NCBI RefSeq assembly: GCF_004114975.1
Contig: NZ_CP030051.1
Coordinates: forward strand, 2,356,001-2,420,000
Length of the DNA stretch: 64,000 nucleotides
Direction of reading: 5' to 3'
Source of the DNA: Bradyrhizobium guangdongense
GTDB taxonomy: Bacteria; Pseudomonadota; Alphaproteobacteria; Rhizobiales; Xanthobacteraceae
Each line of letters starts with the position of its first letter. Position 1 is the first letter of the stretch. Below, piece by piece: positions 55,476-64,000 of this stretch. Position numbers and translations under genes: made by a program. The notes beneath the pieces were generated by a model. It made no database searches. It saw nothing but the letters and a program-made list of their open reading frames with translations, and was not told the DNA's origin.

Positions 55476-56261
55476 CGGGCAAAACCCCTGCAGCAGGGTG
55501 TTAAGCTCCGATTACAGAAATTCGGAATAACTTATGTATCGCTCACGCCGGCCTGATCTTGAGGGCGATCGTAGGTCGTCACGTCTGCGAGTCGGGATGC
55601 GGTGGACGCGGCAGCGTCGGCACGATGGGTAGCGGGCAGCCCGAAACCGCGGGCGGACGAACGGCGCTGTCAAATTCGTCGCGCCCACATTCTTTCGGCG
55701 CGTGTGCACATTGCTGAAAGTCCCTGTGGCATCAGCGGCGCGCGTACGACATAACCGTGTGGTCCTGGCCCCAGCCATTTTCGACTTCGATGTTCGGCGC
55801 GTCTTGTTCAGCCCAAGAATTCGATAACCCGCAATCCGACAACTGACGGCTTTTCGCAATCGCCGCCCACGCCATTCGAGGCTCAGCTGGTCTGGGACCG
55901 TGCCAGAGGCAGAGTTCCGATCCAGCCGGTGCGCAGTCCACTATTCTGTCTAACGAGCCGTCCCTCAACGCCCTTTTGTCCTGCATCCAGCCGCCAGTTC
56001 ATGCCTTGCGTTTGCTAGACAGCTTTCGGTGTCTTCTGCAGGGCTGGAGTATGGGTGCCGCTCAGGAGCTTCTGAAAATGAGCAATGTTCTGCTGGCAAG
56101 TGAACCTTTTCAAGCAGATCGGTTGGCCGTGTGGTTGCTAGGCTAGTGGCGATGCTTCTCGTTCCGAATAAGGGCGCAACACTGCCAGGGAACCATCACC
56201 ACGCAAACTCTCGCTTGCGGCTGGGTGCCACACCTGAATTCCACCTGGGGCTTGCCGAGCG

Positions 56262-56444
56262 CTAGATCAGAGCGTCGATCGTTCGTTGCAGCCGAGATAT
56301 GTTCTTCGCTTCCGTCTCGATTTGACGGTTCGTTTCAGAGTCCAAGGATCGCGCATCCGGGGGCGTGTCGGCCTCTAATCGCTCGATGCGCTTTCGAGAT
56401 AGTTCAAGGATCTCTTGAAGCTGCTCTTTCCAGAGAGCGGTCAT
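56262..56444 (-). CDS. Possible small coiled-coil protein
   Basis: A 60-residue frame with heptad-like charge spacing (LQEILELSRKRIERLEADTP, then RQIETEAKNISRLQRTIDAL) ends in a clean stop. The amino-acid pattern looks natural, but the upstream region lacks a clear ribosome site and no partner gene is near. It could be a remnant. Confidence 0.3.
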   Translation of the reverse strand: MTALWKEQLQEILELSRKRIERLEADTPPDARSLDSETNRQIETEAKNISRLQRTIDALI

Positions 56445-57087
56445 GGCTGCAATGCCTACGCAAGACTAGTCGGCTTAACGTTGTCTCTAATGGTTCATAA
56501 ATTACATCTCTTTTTGCTTTGTGCCACCCGCAAGAATACCGGATTCGGCGCCCCGAGGCATCGAACCGAAAGGGGCCGCCTCGCAGCGACCCCTTGCCGG
56601 TTGAAATGCTTGTTCGGGATAGGAAATCCAGCCCCGGCGGGGGCCAGCTTAGAGCTTTCGGAAGCGCCGATAATCCGGACGAATACCGAAAGCGATGCTG
56701 TCCTATTCCTGGACCGGCGAAGGGTCTCACGCCACCAGCCGCAACTTGCTAACCGCCGCCGTCCCGATGATCCGCCGCAACTCGGCCGCGATACCGTCCA
56801 GCACCGCACGTTTTTCGTTCAGTAGTTGTAGACTTTACCAGTGACCGTCGGCACGATTACCTCGGCCGCCTTGACCGCCGCGTGGTCGAGACATTTCGCG
56901 ATCCAGGCATCATCAAAGCCCAGATCACCGGCCAAGGTCGCTGCTGTTCGGCGCTAGTCATGTAGGGTGACAAGCACTGGCAAGCCACTCGCAAGGCTTC
57001 GTCTTCGAAAGTCCGGTCTATCCGGGGCAGCCGCTCTACCGTACCGCGATGAGTGCCGCACTGCGCGGCACCAAGCACGAGACCTGC

Positions 57088-57135
57088 AAGACCAAGACCA
57101 GGACTAAGACTAAAACTAAGACCAAGACTAAGACG
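57088..57135. repeat. Hexanucleotide repeat, eight AAGACY-type units
   Basis: Eight consecutive 6-bp units of AAGACC/AAGACT type, with three variant units, fill 57088-57135. In one plus frame they read as Lys-Thr repeats, and on the minus strand as Leu-Val repeats. Confidence 0.85.
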
Positions 57136-57239
57136 CCCGGTGTGAGCGAATTGCTTGGCCTTAAGCGATTTGCCCCACGACCTTTGTAGGACCGCTGCCA
57201 CACTTGCGGGCGAACTCGGTTACTAGCAGGCTGCGATTG

Positions 57240-57865
57240 CGAAGTGCTTGAGCAAGCCGTGATGGTGAGTTGGCCAATCCAAGGCTCCGTGATGACTCGA
57301 CTCTCGATGCGATGGTGAAGCGCGGCAAAACCCATGAAGAGGATTTTGTCGATCATCTCGGTAGCAGGGGAGCTCCGTCGCCGTCATTGCCGGTGTTGGC
57401 GTCGGTGACGCCTGGGTTGCCCAAACGCCGGAGGCGATGGCGCATGACGATGCGGTGATCGCCCAGGCGGCCTTGCAGGATGGGAATTGAAGTGGTCGCG
57501 CCGCCGTGCTGCGGCGCGTTGAGACACCGAGCGGTTTGGGCGCGTCGTCATACGAGGTCATCCACCACAAAGTTCTCCCGTGAGACTAAGGGCAACATGG
57601 TCCTGCAGCTCAGCACCTACTCGGACCTACTGGCGACCGTGCACCAGAAGGTTCCGGAGACGGCGTATGTCGTGACACCCGGGACGGAGGACCTTCAACT
57701 TGTTGCACTAACCAAAGCGCGGCGCTGATGATGATCAGCACCGGCCAGGTGTCTACAGCGTGGCCGATTTTGCGTCGTTCTACTCACATCAAGCGAAACC
57801 TAGTGGCCTTTGCAGCAGTGCCCCGCACGATCGCCGACCCGGCCGACCATTGCGAGGTCTGCTGA
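57240..57865 (+). pseudogene. RecB-like nuclease of the TM0106 family, decayed
   Basis: Family segments occur in order but in different frames. LRDDSTLDAMVKRGKTHEED begins at about 57290, LRRVETPSGLGASSYEVIHH at about 57510, and RETKGNMVLQLSTYSDLLAT with PETAYVVTPGTEDLQ at about 57580-57700. VADFASFY follows at about 57760. The Glu/Lys nuclease motif around Y-E-V is partly altered (EVIHHK instead of the usual EVVDTK). Several frameshifts and stops show the gene is dead. Confidence 0.65.
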
Positions 57866-58212
57866 TGGCGCGGGCTGCGATGCCGGGCCGATCCGCGAGC
57901 TTGTGCGGCTATTAATGCTGGCGGGATTTGTGAATTGCTTCACATAACGATGCTGCGAATGCTGTCGGTGCGCAAACTAGATCGTTCTCGCTCCATGTTG
58001 CAGACGTGGTCGGCGGATTGGAGCCGAATCTTATGCTAGCATCAAGGCGCCTCCTTGACAGAGGTGGCGTGAAAAGCTTTGATTACCCGCGTTTTCTGAA
58101 AAGTGATTTTTTGCTGCACTTGGCGCAGTGGGCGAACGTGTCTTCTAGAGCACCGTCAGACTAAGCTGAAGAGGAAGGCTCGCTGTTCATCGTCAGGCTT
58201 CGGAGATATTGC
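57866..58212. other. Upstream region of the giant repeat gene
   Basis: No gene is seen. A sigma-70-like pair lies at 58055-58060 (TTGACA) and 58078-58083 (TTTGAT) with a 17-bp spacer, about 130 bp before the giant gene. CGGAGATATTGC just before the ATG serves as a ribosome site. Confidence 0.5.
58055..58083 (+). promoter_or_regulatory. Candidate sigma-70-type promoter
   Basis: The -35 TTGACA is perfect. The -10 TTTGAT matches four of six positions. The spacer is 17 bp and the ATG of the giant gene is 130 bp downstream. By eye this is the best promoter candidate for that gene. Confidence 0.4.
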
Positions 58213-61200
58213 ATGTCCGATTCACTTGCCTCTTGGAACCGCATCAAGAACATCTCCGGGTTCAGTGACGGCGTCCATTCCGGACCGCCGCTGGCTGCGC
58301 CGCTGACATTGCCGGCGAGTGGAGTTGCGCCCGACAGCGCAGGCGCCTCGCTGGACTACTACGTGCGCTTCTCGATGTATGACGGGACGACGTTCACGGT
58401 CGACGGCAACAAGCTGTTCGGCCTGCATGGTTTCTCGTTCAGTGACGACCAGACGCTCAACATCGGCAGCCAGTCGACTGGTGCAGGAGCGGGCAAGGTC
58501 ACCTTCAATCCCTTGCATCTGAGCTTCTCGCAGCTCGGCCTGGATCCGAAGCTGTTCCAGATGCTCGCCTCTGGTACGGCGTTCAAGGAGGTTGATGTCC
58601 TCGGCTACCACGAGAGCGGCGATACCAGCCATCTTGCGGTCGACTACAGCTTTGGCCTGGCTGCAGCCAAGACGTTGGGCATCAATGACAGCGGCATCAC
58701 CACGCTCGACCTCGAATACGGCGCCGAGGCGATGCAGATCTTCAATCAGCATCTCGACGGCTCATACTCCTCGACCCCGGATGCGACGTCATCCTGGAAC
58801 CGCATCAAGAACATCTCCGGGTTCAGCGACGGCGTCCATTCTGGACCGCCGCTGGCTGCGCCGCTGACATTGCCGGCGAGTGGAGTTGCGCCCGACAGCG
58901 CAGGCGCCTCGCTGGACTACTACGTGCGCTTCTCGATGTATGACGGGACGACGTTCACGGTGGACGGCAACAAGCTGTTCGGCCTGCATGGTTTCTCGTT
59001 CAGTGACGACCAGACGCTCAACATCGGCAGCCAGTCGACTGGTGCAGGAGCAGGCAAGGTCACCTTCAATCCCTTGCATCTGAGCTTCTCGCAGCTCGGC
59101 CTGGATCCGAAGCTGTTCCAGATGCTCGCCTCTGGTACGGCGTTCAAGGAGGTTGATGTCCTCGGCTACCACGAGAGCGGCGATACCAGCCATCTTGCGG
59201 TCGACTACAGCTTTGGCCTGGCTGCAGCCAAGACGTTGGGCATCAATGACAGCGGCATCACCACGCTCGATCTCGAGTACGGCGCCGAGGCGATGCAGAT
59301 CTTCAATCAGCATCTCGACGGCTCATACTCCTCGACCCCGGATGCGACGTCATCCTGGAACCGCATCAAGAACATCTCCGGGTTCAGCGACGGCGTCCAT
59401 TCCGGACCGCCGCTGGCTGCGCCGCTGACATTGCCGGCGAGTGGAGTTGCGCCCGACAGCGCAGGCGCCTCGCTGGACTACTACGTGCGCTTCTCGATGT
59501 ATGACGGGACGACGTTCACGGTCGACGGCAACAAGCTGTTCGGCCTGCATGGTTTCTCGTTCAGTGACGACCAGACGCTCAACATCGGCAGCCAGTCGAC
59601 TGGTGCAGGAGCAGGCAAGGTCACCTTCAATCCCTTGCATCTGAGCTTCTCGCAGCTCGGCCTGGATCCGAAGCTGTTCCAGATGCTCGCCTCTGGTACG
59701 GCGTTCAAGGAGGTTGATGTCCTCGGCTACCACGAGAGCGGCGATACCAGCCATCTTGCGGTCGACTACAGCTTTGGCCTGGCTGCAGCCAAGACGTTGG
59801 GCATCAATGACAGCGGCATCACCACGCTCGACCTCGAATACGGCGCCGAGGCGATGCAGATCTTCAATCAGCATCTCGACGGCTCATACTCCTCGACCCC
59901 GGATGCGACGTCATCCTGGAACCGCATCAAGAACATCTCCGGGTTCAGCGACGGCGTCCATTCTGGACCGCCGCTGGCTGCGCCGCTGACATTGCCGGCG
60001 AGTGGAGTTGCGCCCGACAGCGCAGGCGCCTCGCTGGACTACTACGTGCGCTTCTCGATGTATGACGGGACGACGTTCACGGTCGACGGCAACAAGCTGT
60101 TCGGCCTGCATGGTTTCTCGTTCAGTGACGACCAGACGCTCAACATCGGCAGCCAGTCGACTGGTGCAGGAGCAGGCAAGGTCACCTTCAATCCCTTGCA
60201 TCTGAGCTTTTCGCAGCTCGGCCTGGATCCGAAGCTGTTCCAGATGCTCGCCTCTGGTACGGCGTTCAAGGAGGTTGATGTCCTCGGCTACCACGAGAGC
60301 GGCGATACCAGCCATCTTGCGGTCGACTACAGCTTTGGCCTGGCTGCAGCCAAGACGTTGGGCGTCAATGACAGCGGCATCACCACGCTCGATCTCGAAT
60401 ACGGCGCCGAGGCGATGCAGATCTTCAATCAGCATCTCGACGGCTCATACTCCTCGACCCCGGATGCGACGTCATCCTGGAATCGCATCAAGAACATCTC
60501 CGGGTTCAGTGACGGCGTCCATTCCGGACCGCCGCTGGCTGCGCCGCTGAAATTGCCGGCGAGTGGAGTTGCGCCCGACAGCGCAGGCGCCTCGCTGGAC
60601 TACTACGTGCGCTTCTCGATGTATGACGGGACGACGTTCACGGTCGACGGCAACAAGCTGTTTGGCCTGCATGGCTTCTCGTTCAGTGACGACCAGACGC
60701 TCAACATCGGCAGCCAGTCGAGTGGTGCGGGAGCGGGCAAGGTCACCTTCAATCCCTTGCATCTGAGCTTCTCGCAGCTCGGCCTAGATCCGAAGCTGTT
60801 CCAGATGCTCGCCTCTGGTACGGCGTTCAAGGAGGTTGATGTCCTCGGCTACCACGAGAGCGGCGATACCAGCCATCTTGCGGTCGACTACAGCTTTGGC
60901 CTGGCTGCAGCCAAGACGTTGGGCATCAATGACAGCGGCATCACCACGCTCGACCTCGAATACGGCGCCGAGGCGATGCAGATCTTCAATCAGCATCTCG
61001 ACGGCTCATACTCCTCGACCCCGGATGCGACGTCATCCTGGAACCGCATCAAGAACATCTCCGGGTTCAGCGACGGCGTCCATTCCGGACCGCCGCTGGC
61101 TGCGCCGCTGACATTGCCGGCGAGTGGAGTTGCGCCCGACAGCGCAGGCGCCTCGCTGGACTACTACGTGCGCTTCTCGATGTATGACGGGACGACGTTC

Positions 61201-64000
61201 ACGGTCGACGGCAACAAGCTGTTCGGCCTGCATGGCTTCTCGTTCAGCGACGACCAGACGCTGAACATCGGCAGCCAGTCGACTGGTGCAGGAGCAGGCA
61301 AGGTCACCTTCAATCCCTTGCATCTGAGCTTCTCGCAGCTCGGGCTGGATCCGAAGCTGTTCCAGATGCTCGCCTCTGGTACGGCGTTCAAGGAGGTTGA
61401 TGTCCTCGGCTATCACGAGAGCGGCGATACCAGCCATCTTGCGGTCGACTACAGCTTTGGCCTGGCTGCAGCCAAGACGTTGGGCGTCAATGACAGCGGC
61501 ATCACCACGCTCGATCTCGAATACGGCGCCGAGGCGATCCACGTGTTCGATCTCAATCAAGCGCCAGTTGCGCTGTACGGGAGTGCCACAGGTAACGAAG
61601 ACAATTCCATTTCCGGGCACGCTATCGCGACTGATCCTGATCAACTTCCCGGCCCGATTACGTACAGCCTTGTATCCAGTCCTCAACACGGAACGATCGA
61701 TTTCCATCAAGATGGTTCGTTTGTTTTCACGCCGACTGCAGATTTCAATGGGACTGATTCCTTTACGTTCCAAAGCAGCGATGGAGATCTGACGTCGAAT
61801 GTCGCGACATTCAAGCTGAACGTTCGCGAGGTCAACGACGCGCCAATAGCTAACGCGGATGTCAAAACGACAACCGAAAACAGCAAGCTCGTCTTCGCCG
61901 CGTCCGATCTGATCGCCAATGATGTTCCTGGGCCCACGAATGAAGCCGACCAGCACTTGAAAGTGACGTCAGTTTCCGCAACGCCAGACACCCATGGTCG
62001 GGTTTCGCTGGTCGGCGGCCAGGTTATTTTTACGCCCGACAAGGACTATATCGGAGGCGCCTCATTCAATTATACGGTCACTGATGACGGAACAACTGAC
62101 GGCCGCAGCGATCCCCAGAGCAGTTCCGGAATTGTGAGCATTAACGTCCTATCGACGAAAAATCTAACCTACCTGTTGAAGGTGGACGGGATTCAGGGCG
62201 ATTCGACAGTGAAGGGCTATGAGGGTGCCTTCACGGTTGACGAGTTCACGTTCAACGAGCTGACCAAGCTGGCCGCGGGGGCGGGCGGTGGTGGTGCAGG
62301 CAAGGCGCAGTTCGATCCGTTGACGGTCGATATCGGCAGGCTCTCGGCCGGGCTGGTAAAGCTCCTGGCAGATGCAGCGACAGGCAGGCACATCCCCACG
62401 ATTGAGCTTGTGGGTCTGAAGCCGCAGGGCGATGCGCTGCAGAAGCTCTATGACCTGAAGCTGACCGACGCGACGGTGGCAGGCTTTGCCAGCGACGGCG
62501 GCCACGACACGGCGATCGCTTTCGACTTCAACAGAGGCAGCGAGACGATCGCAGGTCAGAATGCCGACGGTTCGCTCAATGCGGGTCAGACCTTCAACTT
62601 TACGGCCGGCCCGCTCGCGCCCGTCGACCACGACATCCTGACGGCGTTTGCGCATGATCACAGCGGGCCTCAGCTAACCTACCTGTTGAAGGTGGACGGG
62701 ATCCAGGGCGATTCGACAGTGAAGGGCTATGAGGGTGCCTTCACGGTTGACGAGTTCACGTTCAACGAGCTGACCAAGCTGGCCGCGGGGGCGGGCGGTG
62801 GTGGTGCAGGCAAGGCGCAGTTCGATCCGTTGACGGTCGATATCGGCAAGCTCTCGGCCGGGCTGGTAAAGCTCCTGGCAGATGCAGCGACAGGCAGGCA
62901 CATCCCCACGATTGAGCTTGTGGGTCTGAAGCCGCAGGGCGATGCGCTGCAGAAGCTCTATGACCTGAAGCTGACCGACGCGACGGTGGCAGGCTTTGCC
63001 AGCGACGGCGGCCACGACACGGCGATCGCTTTCGACTTCAACAGAGGCAGCGAGACGATCGCAGCTCAGAATGCCGACGGTTCGCTCAATGCGGGTCAGA
63101 CCTTCAACTTTACGGCCGGCCCGCTCGCACCCGTCGACCACAACATCCTGACGGCGTTTGCGCATGATCACAGCGGGCCTCAGCTAACCTACCTGTTGAA
63201 GGTGGACGGGATCCAGGGCGATTCGACAGTGAAGGGCTATGAGGGTGCCTTCACGGTTGACGAGTTCACGTTCAACGAGCTGACCAAGCTGGCCGCGGGG
63301 TCGGGCGCTGGTGCAGGCAAGGCGCAGTTCGATCCGTTGACGGTCGATATCGGCAGGCTCTCGGCCGGGCTGGTAAAGCTCCTGGCAGATGCAGCGACAG
63401 GCAGGCACATCCCCACGATTGAGCTTGTGGGTCTGAAGCCGCAGGGCGATGCGCTGCAGAAGCTCTATGACCTGAAGCTGACCGACGCGACGGTGGCAGG
63501 CTTTGCCAGCGACGGAGGCCACGACACGGCGATCGCTTTCGACTTCAACAGAGGCAGCGAGACGATCGCAGCTCAGAATGCCGATGGTTCGCTCAAGGCG
63601 GGTCAGACCTTCAACTTTACGGCCGGCCCGCTCGCACCCGTCGACCACAACATCCTGACGGCGTTTGCGCATGATCACAGCGGGCCTCAGCTAACCTACC
63701 TGTTGAAGGTGGACGGGATCCAGGGCGATTCGACAGTGAAGGGCTATGAGGGTGCCTTCACAGTTGACGAGTTCACGTTCAACGAGCTGACCAAGCTGGC
63801 CGCGGGGGCGGGCGGTGGTGGTGCAGGCAAGGCGCAGTTCGATCCGTTGACGGTCGATATCGGCAAGCTCTCGGCCGGGCTGGTAAAGCTCCTGGCAGAT
63901 GCAGCGACAGGCAGGCACATCCCCACGATTGAGCTTGTGGGTCTGAAGCCACAGGGCGATGCGCTGCAGAAGCTCTATGACCTGAAGCTGACCGACGCGA
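58213..64000 (+). CDS. Giant repeat protein with Hcp-like modules and cadherin-like domains (partial)
   Basis: From the ATG at 58213 (GGAG upstream) the frame stays open to the window end, at least 1929 codons. There is no N-terminal signal peptide, so export by a type I system with a C-terminal signal beyond the window is likely. Residues about 7-1110 hold six 187-residue repeats (DYYVRFSMYDGTTFTVDG, KVTFNPLHLSFSQLGLDPKL). About 1117-1315 hold two cadherin-like domains (GTIDFHQDGSFVFTPTADFN, YIGGASFNYTVTDDGTTDGR). From about 1318 a second array of about 170-residue repeats begins (LTYLLKVDGIQGDSTVKGYE, LADAATGRHIPTIELVGLKP), resembling the T6SS tube protein Hcp. I infer a surface or secreted adhesin-like protein. 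Confidence 0.85.
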   Translation, partial: MSDSLASWNRIKNISGFSDGVHSGPPLAAPLTLPASGVAPDSAGASLDYYVRFSMYDGTTFTVDGNKLFGLHGFSFSDDQTLNIGSQSTGAGAGKVTFNPLHLSFSQLGLDPKLFQMLASGTAFKEVDVLGYHESGDTSHLAVDYSFGLAAAKTLGINDSGITTLDLEYGAEAMQIFNQHLDGSYSSTPDATSSWNRIKNISGFSDGVHSGPPLAAPLTLPASGVAPDSAGASLDYYVRFSMYDGTTFTVDGNKLFGLHGFSFSDDQTLNIGSQSTGAGAGKVTFNPLHLSFSQLGLDPKLFQMLASGTAFKEVDVLGYHESGDTSHLAVDYSFGLAAAKTLGINDSGITTLDLEYGAEAMQIFNQHLDGSYSSTPDATSSWNRIKNISGFSDGVHSGPPLAAPLTLPASGVAPDSAGASLDYYVRFSMYDGTTFTVDGNKLFGLHGFSFSDDQTLNIGSQSTGAGAGKVTFNPLHLSFSQLGLDPKLFQMLASGTAFKEVDVLGYHESGDTSHLAVDYSFGLAAAKTLGINDSGITTLDLEYGAEAMQIFNQHLDGSYSSTPDATSSWNRIKNISGFSDGVHSGPPLAAPLTLPASGVAPDSAGASLDYYVRFSMYDGTTFTVDGNKLFGLHGFSFSDDQTLNIGSQSTGAGAGKVTFNPLHLSFSQLGLDPKLFQMLASGTAFKEVDVLGYHESGDTSHLAVDYSFGLAAAKTLGVNDSGITTLDLEYGAEAMQIFNQHLDGSYSSTPDATSSWNRIKNISGFSDGVHSGPPLAAPLKLPASGVAPDSAGASLDYYVRFSMYDGTTFTVDGNKLFGLHGFSFSDDQTLNIGSQSSGAGAGKVTFNPLHLSFSQLGLDPKLFQMLASGTAFKEVDVLGYHESGDTSHLAVDYSFGLAAAKTLGINDSGITTLDLEYGAEAMQIFNQHLDGSYSSTPDATSSWNRIKNISGFSDGVHSGPPLAAPLTLPASGVAPDSAGASLDYYVRFSMYDGTTFTVDGNKLFGLHGFSFSDDQTLNIGSQSTGAGAGKVTFNPLHLSFSQLGLDPKLFQMLASGTAFKEVDVLGYHESGDTSHLAVDYSFGLAAAKTLGVNDSGITTLDLEYGAEAIHVFDLNQAPVALYGSATGNEDNSISGHAIATDPDQLPGPITYSLVSSPQHGTIDFHQDGSFVFTPTADFNGTDSFTFQSSDGDLTSNVATFKLNVREVNDAPIANADVKTTTENSKLVFAASDLIANDVPGPTNEADQHLKVTSVSATPDTHGRVSLVGGQVIFTPDKDYIGGASFNYTVTDDGTTDGRSDPQSSSGIVSINVLSTKNLTYLLKVDGIQGDSTVKGYEGAFTVDEFTFNELTKLAAGAGGGGAGKAQFDPLTVDIGRLSAGLVKLLADAATGRHIPTIELVGLKPQGDALQKLYDLKLTDATVAGFASDGGHDTAIAFDFNRGSETIAGQNADGSLNAGQTFNFTAGPLAPVDHDILTAFAHDHSGPQLTYLLKVDGIQGDSTVKGYEGAFTVDEFTFNELTKLAAGAGGGGAGKAQFDPLTVDIGKLSAGLVKLLADAATGRHIPTIELVGLKPQGDALQKLYDLKLTDATVAGFASDGGHDTAIAFDFNRGSETIAAQNADGSLNAGQTFNFTAGPLAPVDHNILTAFAHDHSGPQLTYLLKVDGIQGDSTVKGYEGAFTVDEFTFNELTKLAAGSGAGAGKAQFDPLTVDIGRLSAGLVKLLADAATGRHIPTIELVGLKPQGDALQKLYDLKLTDATVAGFASDGGHDTAIAFDFNRGSETIAAQNADGSLKAGQTFNFTAGPLAPVDHNILTAFAHDHSGPQLTYLLKVDGIQGDSTVKGYEGAFTVDEFTFNELTKLAAGAGGGGAGKAQFDPLTVDIGKLSAGLVKLLADAATGRHIPTIELVGLKPQGDALQKLYDLKLTDA
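58231..61542 (+). repeat. Six tandem 561-bp coding repeats
   Basis: Units start at 58231, 58792, 59353, 59914, 60475 and 61036, each beginning with Ser-Trp-Asn-Arg. The period is exactly 561 bp (187 codons). Copies differ by only a few mostly silent substitutions, for example T to K in the fifth unit near 60550. The sixth unit lacks the terminal linker and passes into the cadherin-like region. Confidence 0.95.
62164..64000 (+). repeat. Tandem array of about 510-bp Hcp-like coding repeats
   Basis: Units start at 62164, 62674, 63184 and 63691, with periods 510, 510 and 507 bp. The third unit lacks one Gly codon in the Gly-rich loop (GAGGGGAGK becomes GSGAGAGK). The fourth unit is cut by the window edge. 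Copies are nearly identical. Confidence 0.95.

Follow-up and report, generated by a model that had tools for sequence, protein, structure and literature searches.

A giant open reading frame of Bradyrhizobium guangdongense with tandem Hcp domains, six of which may close into a ring within a single chain

The window analyzed here, a stretch of 64,000 nucleotides from Bradyrhizobium guangdongense (contig NZ_CP030051.1, positions 2,356,001 to 2,420,000), ends inside a giant open reading frame (ORF) that encodes tandem domains of the Hcp family (PF05638), named after the tube protein of the type VI secretion system (T6SS). Ordinary Hcp is a single-domain chain that forms hexamers. The C-terminal half of the giant protein contains six such domains, here called C-type units, and this half is likely (probability roughly 0.7) to be an Hcp hexamer in one chain, in which six fused domains close into one pseudo-six-fold ring. 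The number of C-type units equals the subunit number of the Hcp ring. The original prediction, made from the letters of the window alone, had recognized tandem Hcp-like units of about 170 residues and cadherin-like domains in the same chain, but it missed the Hcp-like first half of the protein (58348-61551) and the C-type total of six.

The tandem Hcp-like units in the giant chain are real. The reading frame, with GGAG located 8-11 bases 5' of its ATG at 58213, stays open up to the window end and reaches a stop codon at 65226 in the genome, which consists of two contigs (8.44 Mb). The 2337-residue chain comprises, in this order, six N-type Hcp-like units, two cadherin/immunoglobulin (Ig) domains, the six C-type units, and the C-terminus DLFLV. 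Within the window part of the chain, Pfam matched T6SS_HCP (E 8.7e-82, 10 stretches), Big_9, and Cadherin_5, the latter two agreeing with the predicted cadherin-like domains. The C-type units open with YLLKVDGIQGDS and recur with a period of 169-170 residues, close to the length first proposed. All six exceed the curated cut-off of PF05638 (52.5-53.4 vs. 23.5 bits) and fall in this family, not in another one; a purpose-built unit profile located them at residues 1320-2302 with 170-172 bits each. In a sequence-only search of the PDB with one C-type unit, the best matches were the Hcp1-family entries 8yun (E 3e-7), 5xhh, and 5xeu, and the same search returned 4tv4 and 3v4h, which were listed without a molecule name.

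Structure prediction points to a ring. AlphaFold2 modeled the six-unit C-type chain with a predicted template modeling score (pTM) of 0.75, and the units are predicted to be placed around a closed ring. In the model, the C-type units adopt the Hcp β-barrel, as the original prediction anticipated, and Foldseek ranks Hcp chains first. Adjoining units, taken in pairs, match phage tube proteins of the two-domain, pseudo-hexameric type, i.e., two or more ring domains of one chain are predicted to lie as ring neighbors. Weaker matches to hub/VgrG proteins seem to connect unit 1 with unit 6, the arrangement expected of a closed ring. Long Foldseek matches to DDB1-like proteins (probability 0.25-0.63, TM score 0.09 or less) were disregarded.

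The number of C-type units in relatives was determined in a protein search with the six units as query, in which lengths of 0.55-1.75 times the query, i.e., approximately three to ten units, were admitted and the best 7996 candidates by shared words were scored. The search yielded 52 proteins and thus, with the B. guangdongense chain, 53, which were all scored by one profile. Complete six-unit arrays were present in 37 of them. Twelve proteins, with ends judged by eye, were dropped as cut or out of frame (P0024, P0025, P0027, P0028, P0030, P0031, P0033, P0038, P0042, P0048, P0051, and P0052). Hence, 37 of the 41 chains judged full-length, that of B. guangdongense included, carry six C-type units. 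The exceptions have five (P0023 and P0026), three (P0036), and one (P0053), and none of the 41 has more than six, with up to approximately ten admitted by the search. Six units are also present in L050, an ORF from another genus of the family (genome G004), and in L055, which stems from a genome of one contig in the genus of B. guangdongense; the unit scores of the latter equal those of P0011, so it was not counted twice. The 38 six-unit chains, L050 included, represent 14 lineages at 50% identity and seven at 40%, and many are close kin. The Pfam Hcp model finds six stretches in P0003, P0029, P0034, P0037, and P0044, and five in P0046. As most full-length relatives have six units, one chain may make a whole ring.

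The fold was originally thought to have been reused to build a fibre or adhesin. Reuse of the Hcp fold within one chain is borne out, but a string of beads, in which Hcp domains serve as stiff spacers of a giant adhesin or fibre secreted by a type I system and their number has no structural meaning, appears unlikely. It would fit the giant size, the cadherin/Ig domains, the near-identical repeats, and the type I-like C-terminus, as well as the variable number of N-type units, of which B. guangdongense has six, G750 four, G004 two, and Bradyrhizobium zhengyangense two, as counted in these four loci from genome and locus searches. B. zhengyangense, the closest named relative found (86% identity over one unit), carries two N-type and two C-type units on a draft contig, which would suit a spacer as well, and an ORF in G916, of the same genus, matches that locus in length and in its 2+2 units. 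A spacer would, however, explain neither why 37 of 41 full-length chains stop at six C-type units and none exceeds it, nor the pTM of the six-domain model and the match of consecutive units to pseudo-hexameric tube chains.

The sequences of the arrays, judged by which the repeats are young, bear on a second alternative. C-type units 3 and 6 are identical across 510 bases, and ~2-5 bases separate units 2, 4, and 5 from each other. N-type units 1-5 have 348-356 of 357 bases in common, whilst the sixth is more divergent (328-333 of 357). A tree was built from 155 units of 25 chains, chosen from 54 and representing 26 arrays as the B. guangdongense chain gives two; in it, the nearest neighbor of a unit was found in the same array in 115 cases, at the same position in another chain in 32, and elsewhere in eight. 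Thus, arrays are remade or homogenized within chains. P0043 consists of three copies of a two-unit module (ABABAB), another route to six than that of the B. guangdongense array. Conceivably, six units were present in one ancestral chain, and the number has since been preserved through descent and gene conversion rather than by selection for a ring. The Hcp unit shared by all chains and the position-by-position orthology kept in two close pairs, P0034/P0035 and P0044/P0047 (12 of 12 units each), would agree with such a frozen accident, but we consider it quite improbable given the turnover evident in P0043 and in the identical units 3 and 6. Moreover, five-, three-, and two-unit exceptions show that the C-type number can change, and the N-type arrays of such proteins do vary in their unit number, which makes the near-constant C-type number more telling.

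In the source databases, some relatives are called, e.g., "type VI protein secretion system component Hcp". That the chain is a T6SS component or effector, as these names and its membership of PF05638 imply, is nevertheless very improbable. The absence of T6SS genes, noted before for the window, extends to the whole genome for the two families searched, TssC/VipB (the sheath) and Hcp: no TssC/VipB was found in B. guangdongense, and no Hcp outside the giant ORF at E 0.001. The sheath gene that would mark a T6SS tube component was found in none of the five genomes with multi-unit chains, i.e., B. guangdongense (G000) and four others (G740, G750, G916, and G004), whereas it was present in all five genomes with single-unit Hcp, which were picked by hand from the genus survey for a single-unit Hcp of 165 residues and not at random. 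Neither was a single-unit Hcp listed for any of the five multi-unit genomes.

The one-chain hexamer is probably exported by a type I system. Its DLFLV end, judged by eye, is one that we take to be of the kind seen in serralysin-like type I signals (acidic plus hydrophobic residues), and similar ends are found in a number of relatives (HDGFFLA, SDFLL, TDFVLL, and GDFVL). RTX repeats and a serralysin C-terminal domain were detected in P0046. No match to the RTX nonapeptide family HemolysinCabind was obtained with the window part of the B. guangdongense chain; the part beyond contains more Hcp units. DLFLV is a candidate for the type I signal sought beyond the window. No ABC/HlyD transporter genes were found among 20 neighboring ORFs scanned (10 chosen upstream and 10 downstream). 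One PrtD-type ATPase over the cut-off, adjoining an HlyD gene (C1:6997634-7000710), lies on the same contig, 4.6 Mb off in contig numbering. PrtD-type ATPases are encoded in four of the five multi-unit genomes and were not found in G004 at E 1e-120. Other six-unit chains lack such an end (P0004, P0005, P0029, P0032, P0034, P0035, P0039-P0041, P0045, P0049, P0050, and L050); hence, export may differ between lineages. P0004 and P0005 have long basic N-termini ending in VEQRVLLSA- or VEPRVMLSA-like motifs, presumably typical of planctomycete secreted proteins. In P0053 (639 residues), the Hcp unit immediately follows what looks by eye like a Sec signal peptide; after this example, Hcp-fold proteins may leave the cell outside the T6SS by more than one route.

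The N-type units are more distant from Hcp. The unit profile located six of them at residues 66-1112 with 56-64 bits. They are not listed among the PF05638 matches above the cut-off, and their kinship to Hcp follows from the comparison of N-type and C-type profiles with hhalign (probability 98.2, E 4e-14, 127 columns aligned). An AlphaFold2 model of two N-type units (seven alignment rows) reached a predicted local distance difference test score of only 44.6 and a pTM of 0.35, and no fold is claimed from it. The G750 ORF with four N-type units has a start, a stop, and a tail. As the number of N-type units varies, no rule of six is claimed for this half. This second set may form a second ring, and it is tentatively suggested that the protein is a secreted double-ring device of two one-chain Hcp hexamers tied by cadherin arms.

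In the proposed mechanism, the chain would leave the cell unfolded via a type I (ABC/HlyD/TolC) system and fold outside, where the six fused domains would close into a ring shaped like that of six separate Hcp subunits of the T6SS tube. Owing to the fusion, one molecule would suffice for a ring, which six separate subunits would form only at high local concentration, and the cadherin/Ig domains would tie the C-type ring to the second six-unit set. As no sheath gene was found, the product is unlikely to be an injector; it would more likely be a ring or short tube, secreted and able to bind or hold a ligand.

Table 1. Features of the giant ORF in window coordinates
Feature	Position	Strand	Basis or remark
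Giant ORF	58213..64000 in window, ends at 65226	+	Complete frame L011:6213-13226, 2337 aa
N-type Hcp-like unit 1	58348..58746	+	Unit profile, profile-profile comparison
N-type Hcp-like unit 2	58909..59307	+	Unit profile, profile-profile comparison
N-type Hcp-like unit 3	59470..59868	+	Unit profile, profile-profile comparison
N-type Hcp-like unit 4	60031..60429	+	Unit profile, profile-profile comparison
N-type Hcp-like unit 5	60592..60990	+	Unit profile, profile-profile comparison
N-type Hcp-like unit 6	61153..61551	+	Unit profile, profile-profile comparison
Big_9/cadherin-like domain	61555..61818	+	Residues 1115-1202, Pfam
Cadherin_5 domain	61831..62091	+	Residues 1207-1293, Pfam
C-type Hcp unit 1 (PF05638)	62170..62574	+	Pfam cut-off and unit profile
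C-type Hcp unit 2 (PF05638)	62680..63084	+	Pfam cut-off and unit profile
C-type Hcp unit 3 (PF05638)	63190..63591	+	Pfam cut-off and unit profile; 510-base identity with unit 6
C-type Hcp unit 4 (PF05638)	63697..64000, runs on to 64101	+	Cut by window end
C-type units 5 and 6, DLFLV C-terminus	Past window end, up to 65226	+	Full ORF and unit profile

Among the matches listed in 385 genomes of the class (E 1e-5) and in 398 of the phylum (E 1e-8), the B. guangdongense ORF was the only one with more than one unit; the best 10 candidates per genome were scored in these surveys, and weak units may be missed. In 265 genomes of the genus (best 15 candidates each), G740 has six units, in a chain of 1052 residues, G916 two plus two, and G750 four N-type; fragments were found in G872, G212, and G827, and the other listed matching genomes have single-unit ORFs. 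In all surveys, the latter are mostly 160-230 residues long. Among 296 genomes of the family, besides B. guangdongense, G004 has six units in one ORF and two N-type units in another. The first of these (L050:695-6721), one frame of 2009 residues, continues after its six Hcp units with further repeats, followed by stretches that by eye resemble Hint (CYCDGTLILT..) and a glycosyltransferase; in the second (L051:11446-14967), RTX-like repeats were seen by eye. An ORF resembling a transposase, IS66-like by eye (L019:11414-13063), adjoins the B. zhengyangense chain. In the draft genome G872, two contigs (L057 and L058) carry partial Hcp units at their ends; thus, these repeats may cause draft assemblies to break and perhaps to collapse. 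Searches of plasmids and phages with the six units of B. guangdongense or with P0045 gave no match. With P0003, 169 plasmid records matched, but the 20 listed sit in its cadherin tail (query 992-1419) and not in the Hcp units, and P0003 was rejected as a plasmid-borne six-unit chain. An IMG/VR search with one unit gave 12 pattern matches and no confirmed relative.

The giant ORF is preceded by a gene-poor region of ~2.7 kb (55476-58212) with only short overlapping ORFs of at most 136 residues, a G+C content below that of the preceding stretch, and a repeat of the hexamer CAAGAC (57087-57134); an Rfam search of this region gave no match. MarC, aldolase, and DUF900 genes are found upstream, and Ku and HAD hydrolase genes downstream. 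The G740 gene is flanked by two genes for periplasmic binding proteins, and neighborhoods are unlike between genomes. Mirrored minus-strand ORFs opposite the giant ORF are a by-product of the repetitive nature of the array, and no support for them as genes was seen.

If the one-chain ring reading is true, it would make sense of a group of metagenome proteins that carry the names of T6SS parts, and ready-made rings with six individually variable positions could become available. The reading is easily tested, with one gene and a predicted monomeric ring. If the double-ring reading also holds, possible roles would be self-assembling extracellular tubes, cargo cages, or pores, and the protein would, with considerable reservation, represent a class of six-in-one tube rings that has not been described so far and that acts extracellularly with no sheath, baseplate, or membrane complex. 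No publication on six-unit or tandem Hcp chains was found by title or exact phrase, a search by which novelty is not firmly established.

Compared with Hcp of the T6SS, the chain has six domains instead of one, and no sheath gene was found with it. It resembles type I-secreted giant adhesins and RTX/serralysin proteins in its cadherin/Ig domains and in its acidic plus hydrophobic C-terminus, presumably a shared motif, and some relatives have RTX or serralysin parts like these proteins. It differs from them by the lack of an RTX match in its window part and of a transporter among the 20 neighbors, and by one repeat class that is near-fixed in count. It also resembles two-domain tail tube proteins (T5 pb6 and P74-26) and hub/spike proteins (VgrG), which neighboring units of the model match. 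Fusion of a hexamerization domain yields pseudo-hexameric rings in pb6 and spike proteins, and pb6 of T5, with two ring domains per chain, forms trimers (PMC5717097). Unlike in the pb6 tube, the ring would here consist of a single chain, and neither a phage nor a T6SS locus was found. Phage and T6SS tube rings consist of six chains or of three two-domain chains; a natural one-chain hexamer, if true, would stand at the end of that series of fusions, with the ring used without an injection machine.
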